Source: Planctomycetota bacterium
Lineage (GTDB): Bacteria; Planctomycetota; UBA1135; GCA-002686595
Length of the DNA: 64,000 nt
Assembly: GCA_002683825.1 (NCBI GenBank)
Contig: NYUD01000091.1
Location: 62,001-126,000 of the forward strand
Direction: 5' to 3'
Shown here: piece by piece, positions 27,872 through 31,796 of the stretch
Position numbering within the stretch: the stretch's first letter is position 1
How the letters are laid out: every line of letters begins with the position of its first letter
Notes under the pieces: generated by a model
What the model saw: only the letters and a program-made list of their open reading frames with translations
What the model was told of the DNA's origin: nothing
Database searches by the model: none
Program-made: the position numbers and the translations under genes

Positions 27872-29086
27872 ATGCTTTCCACAATACGCTCGGGTTCCTG
27901 GGCCCTCATGATCGCTGTTGCGTTCGGCGGGTCGGCCCGTGGAGACGCCCTGGACGAAGACTACCCGCGCGCCCACGACGGTCGCCGGGGATTGGGCCAG
28001 CCCGAGGAGCTTTCCGAACTCCTGGCGCTTTTTCGCCAGCCCTCCGCCGAGGATCGTGCCTTCCTCTCCTCTTTGATCGAGCTCGAGGGCCGGCTCAACG
28101 TTCTGATCTCGATCACCGAGGGGCTCTATCGCGATCGCGAATTCTTCGACCTCCTACCCCGCCGCGAGGATCGAACTCTGGGGGCCTTGCACCGGTTGCA
28201 CGCCGATGTGGTTCGCGACCCGGGTGCAGTGCTGGACAAGGTCGGCCGCAAGGGGCCGTTGTGGGCGAGGATGATGCTCGATCCGCGCGTATGGATGCGC
28301 ATCGAAGTGCTTCAGGGCTGGGAGCGGGATGTGCGAGACGTGCGTCTGGGGTTGGCCGTGTTGCGCGGCGTCACCGACGGGTGGGTGCGTTTGGACGACG
28401 TGGTGGCGCGAACCATCGCGGAACGTATCGATCTTTCAGCGGCCCTCTTGCGGGCGCGGATCCTCGATCTCTCGGCCCTGCGTGAGGTGTCCCCAGGTGG
28501 TTCCGAAGTGGCGCCCGAGGATCTGGATCGTTTCCTTTCGTTCGTTGCCCTGCGCGACGAGAAGGAACGCAACCACATGCTCGCCGTGGAACTCGAGAGT
28601 GTCGGTCGACGGGTGGCCACGATGCGTAGTGTTCTCTTCACCCACCGTCTCGAGCTGCTTGCGGCCGAGGAACTCCACCGACGAGCGGAGGGTGAGAAGC
28701 ATGTGAAACGGCTGCGCGAGGAAGTACGGGTCTGGCAGCCCCAGACGCCCGAGGGCAAGAAGGCTCCACCCGAGATCCTGCGTATCAAGAAGACCGCTCG
28801 CCGCCGCGAGGCGTACCGCCGCGCGCTTCAGGGACTGCGCAACGACCCGCTGGATGCCGAGCTAGCCTACGCTGCCGGAACGATGGCCGAGTTCGTCGCG
28901 GGCACCTACGAGAGTCTGTCCTATTTCGACCGCTTTCTCGCCTTGAGCGGTATTCGCGTTCACGACGATCGCAACTGGCGTAAGCGCAAGCTGACGGATG
29001 AGGAAACCCATGCCGTCTTCCAGATCCAGCAGTTTGAGAACGACGAATTCTCCCCCCCCCGCTCCGGGGGGGGCGGCAACGGCTAG
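27872..29086 (+). CDS. Exported protein of unknown function
   Basis: The 404-residue protein has a short signal peptide (MLSTIRSGSWALMIAVAFGGSARG) and a helical, Arg/Glu/Leu-rich mature part. I do not recognise a family. Segments of note are LIELEGRLNVLISITEGLYRDREFFDLLPRRED and DAELAYAAGTMAEFVAGTYESLSYFDRFLALSGIRVHDDRNWRKRKLTDEE, the latter TPR-like. The last codons, encoding PPRSGGGG, lie in a C8/G8 inverted repeat. It is convergent with the thioredoxin-like selenoprotein gene. Confidence 0.7.
   Translation: MLSTIRSGSWALMIAVAFGGSARGDALDEDYPRAHDGRRGLGQPEELSELLALFRQPSAEDRAFLSSLIELEGRLNVLISITEGLYRDREFFDLLPRREDRTLGALHRLHADVVRDPGAVLDKVGRKGPLWARMMLDPRVWMRIEVLQGWERDVRDVRLGLAVLRGVTDGWVRLDDVVARTIAERIDLSAALLRARILDLSALREVSPGGSEVAPEDLDRFLSFVALRDEKERNHMLAVELESVGRRVATMRSVLFTHRLELLAAEELHRRAEGEKHVKRLREEVRVWQPQTPEGKKAPPEILRIKKTARRREAYRRALQGLRNDPLDAELAYAAGTMAEFVAGTYESLSYFDRFLALSGIRVHDDRNWRKRKLTDEETHAVFQIQQFENDEFSPPRSGGGGNG
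29053..29073 (+). repeat. C8/G8 inverted repeat in the last codons of 27872-29086
   Basis: Eight C (29053-29060) and eight G (29066-29073) can form a perfect eight-pair G:C stem with the five-base loop GCTCC. It ends 13 bases before the end of the gene, between two convergent genes. It lacks a T-tract, so an intrinsic terminator is not shown. Homopolymer runs of this kind are also prone to length change. Confidence 0.6.
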
Positions 29087-29189: not shown

Positions 29190-30314
29190 CTACTTTTCTC
29201 TCTGGTATCTTGCAAGCTGGTCGCGCCAGCGTGCGTTCTTCGGGGCGAGCTCGACGCAGCGCTTGAGCTGTGCGATGGCCTCCTGCGTGCGCTCCGCCAG
29301 GAACAGGCTTGCACCGTACATCGCCAGGCTGTTGGCGTCCTTTGGCGCCCGTCGGGCGGCGGCTCCGGAGACCTCGATCAGGAACGCGACATCCCCTGCC
29401 TCGAGTTTGTCAGATGCGTTCAGCAAGGCTGCAGAGATTGCGTTGGCAACCCGCAGCGTGCGCTTTTCGGGGACGTGGCTCCAGAGCGCGCGAGCAGCGG
29501 AAATCTGCAGCTTTCGGTGGCTTTGGCGGGTGCCCTCCTCGCCCTTGTCAGCCAGGTAGCTCTCGACCTGAAACAGGAAGAACCAACCGTTCAGGAGCAG
29601 GTCGGCGTCCTTCTCCTTCTCCAGGAAGTCGTAGACGTCCTGGAAATCCATGTCGTCCACCGCCGTCTTCCTGAGCGCCGCGAACCGGAGGCTGCGTGAG
29701 CCTATGGACGTGCCGTCCGGGTCGTTCTTGTGGATGAACTCGATCTCTCGGTCATACGCCTTCTTGTCTCCGAGCTGCTCGAGTTTCTGCGCGAAGTTCC
29801 AGCGGATCGCCAGATCCATCGGGTTCGCTGCGACCTGCTTTCGCAGACCTCCGAGCGTGAATTCGTTCTTCTTGATTCTCTGTACTTCGGCGATGAAGTC
29901 CTCGGCCGGAAGAAACCCCACGATCTTGTCGCGCACCGATCCGTCCGGTTCGAGGAAGACCATGGCGGGTAGGCCCTGCGCCACATGATCTTTCGCGATG
30001 ACGCGACCGGCCTTGCTTTCGGCATCGATTGAGTAGCACAGGACGTCCTTCATTTCGGTGACCACCGAGGCGCTGGCGAAAGTCTCTTTGCTCAGCTTCT
30101 TGCAGAAACGTCACCAATCGGTCCAGAAGCTCAGGAAGACGAGCTTGTCCGAGCTTTTTGCCCGGGCCATCAGTTCCTTGAAGGTGCCATCGAACCAGGG
30201 GAGGTGTTCGCGGTCGTCGACCGTGAGTAGGGCCTGCTGGGTCGGGGGGGAGGGAGCGACGGGCGGCGGCGCGAGAGCGCCCATCCCTCCGAGTAGAATT
30301 AGGGTGGAGAGCAT
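29190..30314 (-). CDS. Exported thioredoxin-like selenoprotein with TPR region, in-frame TGA (Sec68)
   Basis: Read through the TGA at 30113-30111, one frame from ATG 30314 to the stop at 29190 encodes 374 residues. A signal-like N terminus (MLSTLILLGGMGALAPPP) precedes a thioredoxin fold: KLVFLSFWTDWURFCKKLSKETF, a WxxWUxxC motif where homologues have CxxC, then cis-Pro-like GLPAMVFLEPDGSVRDKIVG. From about residue 145 the chain is TPR-like, with AIAQLKRCVELAPKNARWRDQLARYQ at the end. A SECIS-like hairpin starts 14 nt after the TGA. The family would reduce or form disulfides outside the cytoplasm; Sec makes it more reactive. Without read-through it would appear as two separate genes (67 and 291 residues). 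Confidence 0.88.
30072..30096 (-). promoter_or_regulatory. Predicted bacterial SECIS element of the thioredoxin-like gene
   Basis: On the minus strand GCTG-A-GC-AAAG pairs with CTTT-C-GC-CAGC, giving ten base pairs with two single bulges and a three-base loop AGA. The hairpin begins 14 nt after the TGA and its loop lies 25 nt after it. The G in the loop's second position fits the published bacterial SECIS pattern as I recall it. The 14-nt spacing is identical to that of the SelW-like gene. Confidence 0.7.
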
Positions 30315-30533: not shown

Positions 30534-31796
30534 ATGGGCCGCACGATACGAAGCCCGGAAGCCAACTTGACATCCCACCTCATCCCTACCTGTGCCGATC
30601 GTCCTGGCGACGACCCCATTTTTTCACTCAATGCAGAAGCCATCCGGCGCGCGGCCCAGGGCGAGGGCATCCTGAACTCGACGCTCGGCGCCTTGATGAA
30701 GGACGATGGGACGATGGCGGTCATGCCGTCGGTCTTCGAGGCCTTTCAACGAGTTTCTTCGGAGGCAGCGGCCGCCTACGCACCCATCTCCGGGCCGCCC
30801 GCGTTTCTCGACGCGGTGATCGAGGATCTCTTCGGCTCGGGTCCCCTGGCGAGCGACGCCGTCGGGGCAGCCACGCCCGGTGGAACCGGCGCCTGCTATC
30901 AGGCGATCGTTAACTTCCTCGAACCCGGGCAGAAGCTCCTCACGACCTCCTTCTACTGGGGGCCTTATCGCATCCTGGCCGAGCACTCCTCCCGCGGAAT
31001 AGAAACCTTCGAGATGTTCTCTCCCGACGGTAGCTTTCATTGCGAAGCCCTGGGGAGCGCTCTCGACAAGATGTTCGACCAGCAGGGGCGCGTGTTGCTG
31101 GTGCTGAACACTCCCTGCCATAACCCGACCGGCTTTTCGCTCGACGACAAGGACTGGAACGATTTAGTGACCATCGTTCGGCGCGCGGCGAAAAAGGGAC
31201 CGCTGACGGTTTTATTTGATTTCGCCTATGCGAAGTTCGCTTCGCCGGGCTCGATCCGTTGGCCGCGGCACGTCGGGAGGTTGCAAGGGGAGGCGACCCT
31301 CGTCTTCGCCTGGTCGGCTTCGAAGGCCTTCGCCCAGTATGGGGCACGGGTCGGCGCTTGCATCGCCATCGGGACCGACGAGAAGGAGAACACGCGTTTA
31401 CGCAACGCCTTGGGCTTCTCGTGCAGAGGGACGTGGTCGAACTGCAACCACCTGGGCATGCTGGCCATCACCGAGCTCTTGTGCGACCCCGATTTGCGCC
31501 AGCGTTCCGATGCAGAGCGCGACATGCTGCGTAGCCTGTTGTCGGAACGTGTCGACGCTTTCAACGAACTGGCGAGAGCCAGGGAGCTCGCATACCCGCG
31601 CTATGAGGGTGGGTTTTTTGTGACGGTGTTCTCTTCCGATGCCAAGCGCGTTGCGGCCTCGATGCGCGAAGAGGGGGTCTATGTTGTGCCCGTGGGGGGC
31701 GGTGTTCGGGTGGCGATTTGCTCGACGCCCACGCAACATATGGAGCAACTGGTCGACGCCCTTGTCCATGGAGTTGAAGCTGCGGGAGCGATCTAG
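30534..31796 (+). CDS. Aspartate/aromatic aminotransferase-like enzyme (class I, PLP)
   Basis: The 420-residue protein belongs to the AspC/TyrB branch: NTPCHNPTGFSLDDKDW (NPTG), VLFDFAYAKFASPG (PLP Asp/Tyr region), the Schiff-base lysine in FAWSASKAFAQYGARVGA, GFSCRGTWSNCNHLG and the C-terminal Arg of GGVRVAICS. It should transfer amino groups between an amino acid and a 2-oxo acid. Substrate cannot be told; the N-terminal FSLNAEAIRRA...LNSTLGALMKDDG replaces the usual LGVGVY pattern. One base separates its stop from the following cytochrome gene, so the two are probably co-translated. Confidence 0.88.
   Translation: MGRTIRSPEANLTSHLIPTCADRPGDDPIFSLNAEAIRRAAQGEGILNSTLGALMKDDGTMAVMPSVFEAFQRVSSEAAAAYAPISGPPAFLDAVIEDLFGSGPLASDAVGAATPGGTGACYQAIVNFLEPGQKLLTTSFYWGPYRILAEHSSRGIETFEMFSPDGSFHCEALGSALDKMFDQQGRVLLVLNTPCHNPTGFSLDDKDWNDLVTIVRRAAKKGPLTVLFDFAYAKFASPGSIRWPRHVGRLQGEATLVFAWSASKAFAQYGARVGACIAIGTDEKENTRLRNALGFSCRGTWSNCNHLGMLAITELLCDPDLRQRSDAERDMLRSLLSERVDAFNELARARELAYPRYEGGFFVTVFSSDAKRVAASMREEGVYVVPVGGGVRVAICSTPTQHMEQLVDALVHGVEAAGAI

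Follow-up and report, generated by a model that had tools for sequence, protein, structure and literature searches.

A thioredoxin–TPR gene of Planctomycetota with selenocysteine predicted at its catalytic site

Among the known UxxC selenoproteins, a 2026 review of prokaryotic selenoprotein families lists the thiol:disulfide interchange protein (PF13098) and thioredoxin (PF00085) (PMC13188914). The same review characterises the bacterial SECIS element (bSECIS) by a loop of 3–9 nt, an upper stem of 4–16 bp, a G as one of the two leading bases of the loop, a loop located 16–37 nt past the UGA and an MFE <= -7.5. Concerning thioredoxins joined to TPR repeats, CnoX of E. coli has SxxC (PMC8129009). 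Here we describe a thioredoxin–TPR gene found in a 64,000-nucleotide stretch of DNA from a Planctomycetota bacterium (the window), which almost certainly encodes one protein whose internal stop codon is read as selenocysteine (Sec) at the catalytic site. The features of the locus are presented in Table 1.

Table 1. Features of the thioredoxin–TPR locus, with positions in the window and the basis of each assignment.
Feature	Position	Strand	Basis
Thioredoxin–TPR gene, predicted selenoprotein	29190..30314	-	translation and full-length relatives across the bacterial family; 374 aa with TGA = Sec
TGA at residue 68, predicted Sec codon opening the UxxC motif	30111..30113	-	TGA in 5 genomes, TGC/TGT in 21 other loci at the aligned codon
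Cys71 codon, putative resolving residue of UxxC	30102..30104	-	sequence; column nearly invariant
Thioredoxin domain, about residues 40-150, DsbD-gamma-like	29865..30197	-	PF13098 E=1.3e-9; DsbD C-terminal domain among best PDB sequence and fold matches
TPR-like helical repeats of the C-terminal part, residues 154-373	29196..29855	-	weak Pfam TPR matches; all-helical, pLDDT >90; fold-search matches to TPR structures
Hydrophobic signal-like N terminus, residues 1-24, without basic n-region	30243..30314	-	sequence; similar N termini in relatives; low pLDDT
SECIS-like hairpin of ten pairs, its AGA apical loop lying 25 nt past TGA	30072..30096	-	folding, five-gene comparison, four bSECIS constraints
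Class I/II aminotransferase gene, divergent conserved neighbour	30534..31796	+	Pfam; tblastn, like arrangement in many related loci
Convergent neighbour, 404 aa, partly conserved beside the thioredoxin–TPR gene	27872..29086	+	tblastn to related loci

The reading frame lies on the minus strand, a point that the sequence-only reading had left out, and runs from an ATG (30314-30312) through the TGA (30113-30111) to a TAG (29192-29190), and the read-through product of 374 residues is MLSTLILLGGMGALAPPP...FLSFWTDW-U-RFCKKLSKETF..., its last 306 residues lying past the TGA. The sequence-only reading of this DNA had placed the TGA at the first Cys of a thioredoxin CxxC (WTDW-TGA-RFC), which is borne out by the translation and by the aligned Cys column of the relatives, and had counted 306 in-frame codons past it, which the translation up to the TAG confirms; its description was accurate in each detail that could be checked. 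Under translation table 11, the TGA would be a true stop, and the locus would be either a pseudogene or a source of two products, one of 67 aa and one from a GTG-started ORF of 291 aa that begins at 30065. TGA is indeed a normal terminator here, ending 17 of the 29 long ORFs in the window; however, a protein begun at that GTG would lack strand one of the thioredoxin fold as well as its catalytic motif, and the part downstream of the TGA is conserved over its full length. Standard annotation would truncate or overlook genes of this kind.

We searched 154 genomes of the same bacterial order for relatives, and full-length ones were found. At the aligned codon of the residue-68 column, five genomes belonging to five genera have TGA (G000, which is the genome of the window, G003, G015, G030 and G063) and 21 loci have TGC or TGT, whereas Ser or Asn is encoded in a small number of distant relatives. 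The search for Cys homologues with WxxWCxxC, proposed by the earlier reading as a check, has therefore returned 21 Cys loci, together with TGA homologues in four genomes other than that of the window. None of the five Sec genes contains any further internal stop or frameshift, and their TGA stands only at the catalytic Cys column. Chance or sequencing error would not produce such a placement in five genomes, there and nowhere else in the genes. An error in a Cys codon would need a single base change, as TGA is one base from TGC or TGT, and the window comes from a draft assembly; against this, the same TGA is found in five genera and is accompanied by a shared hairpin, so that the probability of such an error is negligible. 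The recurrence of this TGA at the catalytic Cys, in frames that hold neither a further stop nor a frameshift, also argues against a true stop.

Concerning the machinery for Sec, the genome encodes a tRNA-Sec (73 bits; anticodon TCA; also found by ARAGORN) as well as SelA, SelB and SelD, and the set is thus complete. The SelD frame itself holds a TGA at its active site, GAG-U-AAK (L093:6522-7649 (+), G000:C109), which makes it very probable that the genome decodes Sec elsewhere too. The tRNA-Sec lies about 1.6 kb downstream of SelD on the same contig. Of the 154 genomes of the order, 143 have SelA, 139 of them above the cut-off, and so do all five genomes with the Sec form of the thioredoxin–TPR gene. 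The complete machinery in the genome also speaks against a true stop at residue 68, which we regard as very improbable. A genome-wide reassignment of TGA to an ordinary amino acid would also account for an in-frame TGA in a conserved gene, but the many long ORFs of the window that end in TGA already contradict it; moreover, the G003 copy has both an internal TGA and a TGA terminator, and tRNA-Sec with anticodon TCA, SelA and SelB are present. We regard this reassignment as extremely improbable.

The hairpin after the TGA, GCTGAGCAAAGAGACTTTCGCCAGC (30096-30072), starts 14 nt past it and folds as GCTG-A-GC-AAAG-AGA-CTTT-C-GC-CAGC, with ten pairs, one bulged base per side and a 3-nt AGA loop; sequence and folding agree with the ten-pair bulged hairpin noticed in the sequence-only reading. 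In all four respects (lengths of stem and loop, a loop G, spacing and energy) it lies within the bSECIS constraints of PMC13188914, with the AGA loop at 25 nt and -8.7 kcal/mol. Folded alone, a 63-nt stretch is not unusual against dinucleotide shuffles (z=0.56). As the shuffle test is uninformative for a single hairpin, a synonymous-codon test was used, in which the same peptides are recoded according to the codon usage of the gene concerned. The hairpins of the five Sec genes are stronger than this null (p = 0.08, 0.0015, 0.010, 0.022, 0.0085), with a combined Fisher value of 2.8e-6 vs 0.07 for the 17 Cys genes tested; the window gene alone gives the marginal value of 0.08. Taken singly, then, the hairpin of the window gene is weak evidence for a SECIS element, and only the comparison across the five Sec genes makes it strong.

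The Sec genes fold a small hairpin of like kind in the corresponding position, its stem moved by one base in G030. When the five Sec genes are aligned with the Cys gene of G043, 90.7% of the pair cells are standard vs 31-65% when the partners are slid, and compensatory changes are seen at two pairs. In G063, G003 and G015 the minimal loop of 3 nt reads ACA and has no G; a G closes the loop, and the hairpin obeys the strict G rule of bSECIS there only when the closing G-C opens. Rfam gives no match in the window at the gathering threshold, and hence no SECIS. A SECIS search had also been suggested at the outset, and what it gives is this hairpin, common to the Sec genes and above the synonymous null. 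Altogether, the selenoprotein reading of the gene is strongly supported, as far as sequence evidence goes, by the Sec/Cys pairing, the machinery and the shared hairpin.

Looking at the tree of the relatives, the Sec genes are scattered and form no single clade. The Sec gene of G063 is sister to the Cys gene of G043 (L023, G043:C326) with support 100/100, and the latter retains a SECIS-like hairpin (p=0.01, synonymous recoding). Both are expected if Sec was recently exchanged for Cys, and such an exchange in G043 relative to G063 is likely; the tree thereby agrees with the pairing, the machinery and the hairpin in pointing to Sec. The genome of G043 keeps SelA despite the Cys form of its thioredoxin–TPR gene. 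Tandem thioredoxin–TPR paralogues adjoin in L026, L027 and L028 (G034, G035, G036) and in L025 (G037), and one copy among them carries an unusual site, for example QVVLVFQRKGCKRC. One orthologous protein that carries Sec in certain genera but Cys in others, a close sister pair included, constitutes a natural series, and the old question of what selenium brings to a thioredoxin becomes directly testable with it.

Based on the Pfam profiles, the protein matches Thioredoxin_2 (PF13098) with 38.7 bits vs a cut-off of 27, and the TPR matches are weak, including PF14561 (TPR_20). Among solved structures, the closest in sequence are a putative disulfide isomerase and C-terminal domains of DsbD. An AlphaFold model built from 23 relatives (mean pLDDT 91.5) shows residues 40 to about 150 as a thioredoxin fold, followed by helices only; a fold search places DsbD gamma first, YbbN/CnoX next, and TPR superhelices for the C-terminal part. 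Pro116 is invariant among the relatives, and the profile, the position of UxxC after the first strand and the fold are those of the thioredoxin superfamily. Pfam, the confident model and the fold search all point to a thioredoxin domain followed by a predicted TPR-like helical solenoid of 220 residues, and they uphold the thioredoxin–TPR fusion recognised earlier from the sequence.

Concerning the N-terminal region, the N termini of the relatives are short and hydrophobic and have small residues ahead of the mature domain, and in G063 the ATG directly follows a stop, so that no longer N terminus is possible there. The sequence-only reading had raised the export of the window protein on account of a signal-like N terminus. 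The signal-like character is retained, with a hydrophobic core and small residues in the relatives, whereas by eye the window protein lacks the basic n-region that a classical signal peptide has; we infer from the sequence that the protein is likely exported.

The thioredoxin–TPR gene stands alone, divergent from the aminotransferase gene, and no dsb or sel gene adjoins it. Among the loci compared, such an aminotransferase gene is its neighbour in 18 genomes, Sec and Cys members alike; the conservation of this neighbour supports orthology and says little on function. The product of the convergent gene has no match in Pfam or NCBIfam.

The only DsbD_TM protein found in the genome is a full DsbD, with DsbD_N, DsbD_TM and a C-terminal thioredoxin domain, and it has a TGA at residue 670, the first Cys of the C-terminal thioredoxin site, GYT-U-VNC (L141:838-3144 (-), G000:C9:1396-3702). 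Most DsbD matches of the family that reach the C-terminal domain hold one TGA and a few have Cys; the TGA is at the first Cys of the thioredoxin site in 19 of the 22 family loci with a readable motif, G000 included. A TGA-bearing match in G153 was rejected as a Sec relative, its TGA being located far outside the thioredoxin motif and beside a normal FWCVWC site. A DsbD of the same genome with Sec in its output domain would naturally supply electrons to an exported thioredoxin domain. The presence of Sec in DsbD across nearly the entire family, together with the thioredoxin–TPR selenoprotein, points to a selenium-based redox chemistry of the envelope across the whole family.

We consider that the gene probably encodes an exported Sec disulfide reductase or isomerase that is fed by DsbD and whose TPR part binds clients or a partner. 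A single mRNA would give the 374-residue protein, with UGA codon 68 read as selenocysteine via tRNA-Sec and via SelB, which would bind the hairpin that starts 14 nt further on. With its signal-like N terminus, the protein would probably be exported; Sec68 would be the nucleophile of the U-R-F-C thioredoxin site and Cys71 would resolve. Most likely, it would reduce or isomerise disulfides outside the cytoplasm and be recharged by the Sec DsbD of the genome, and the C-terminal TPR-like solenoid may hold client proteins or a partner. What we infer in this picture is the export, the reductive direction, the DsbD donor and the client binding. The N terminus without basic residues, and the position of the gene beside a conserved aminotransferase and away from any dsb gene, count against it.

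The chief functional rival, by analogy with CnoX/YbbN, would be a selenoprotein acting as a chaperedoxin, that is, a holdase and redox protector in which mixed selenosulfides shield client thiols and no DsbD-fed reductase is involved. A thioredoxin domain followed by TPR is the architecture of CnoX, E. coli YbbN (3qou) is a fold match over most of the length, PF14561 (TPR_20) is among the weak matches, and the Ser or Asn for the first Cys in distant family members compares with the SxxC of E. coli CnoX (PMC8129009). The relatives with this replacement are L019, L038, L040 and L041. However, the thioredoxin domain is nearer to DsbD gamma, the superposition on YbbN is poor (rmsd 22), and CnoX acts with GroEL in the cytoplasm whereas the N terminus here looks exported; we regard the chaperedoxin role as unlikely beside the DsbD-fed reductase or isomerase. 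The most interesting aspect of the latter is the chain from DsbD(Sec) to the thioredoxin–TPR(Sec) protein. Tentatively, and with some doubt, this chain may be an envelope reducing pathway of this lineage with selenium at successive steps, a selenol-to-selenol relay ending in the first exported, client-binding, chaperedoxin-like selenoprotein.

Compared with the known systems, the window protein shares with the PF13098 and PF00085 selenoproteins the thioredoxin fold, the Pfam family, Sec as the first residue of UxxC, Cys homologues and a SECIS past the TGA; those are listed by the thioredoxin-type domain alone, whereas here the TPR-like solenoid and the signal-like N terminus are added. DsbD gamma and TsoB (NF045694) count among the closest relatives of its thioredoxin domain in sequence and fold, and the DsbD of the genome is also a UxxC selenoprotein; unlike them, the window protein has neither a membrane part nor DsbD_N, and has a TPR region instead. 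Its score with the TsoB profile is far under the cut-off (48 vs 805 bits), and it is no DsbD, which it resembles in a gamma-like domain only (PRK00293, 53 vs 330 bits); no NCBIfam model reaches its cut-off on the protein. With CnoX/YbbN it shares the N-terminal thioredoxin domain and the TPR that follows; CnoX/YbbN, however, is described with GroEL and the cytoplasm and has SxxC in its E. coli form, whereas the thioredoxin domain of the window protein is DsbD-gamma-like. No Sec form of CnoX/YbbN was found in the literature searched, and the literature search found no thioredoxin–TPR selenoprotein. The UGC-containing TlpA family, Trx7/PDZ and SaoT selenoproteins are also thioredoxin-like and some are fused to other domains, but they have different motifs or fused domains, with TPR unmentioned (PMC13188914); the words TPR and tetratricopeptide are absent from that review. 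UxxC thioredoxin-like selenoproteins and thioredoxin–TPR proteins are thus each known, the Sec thioredoxin–TPR design is not in the catalogue of PMC13188914, and the thioredoxin–TPR architecture can be added to the list of selenoproteins.
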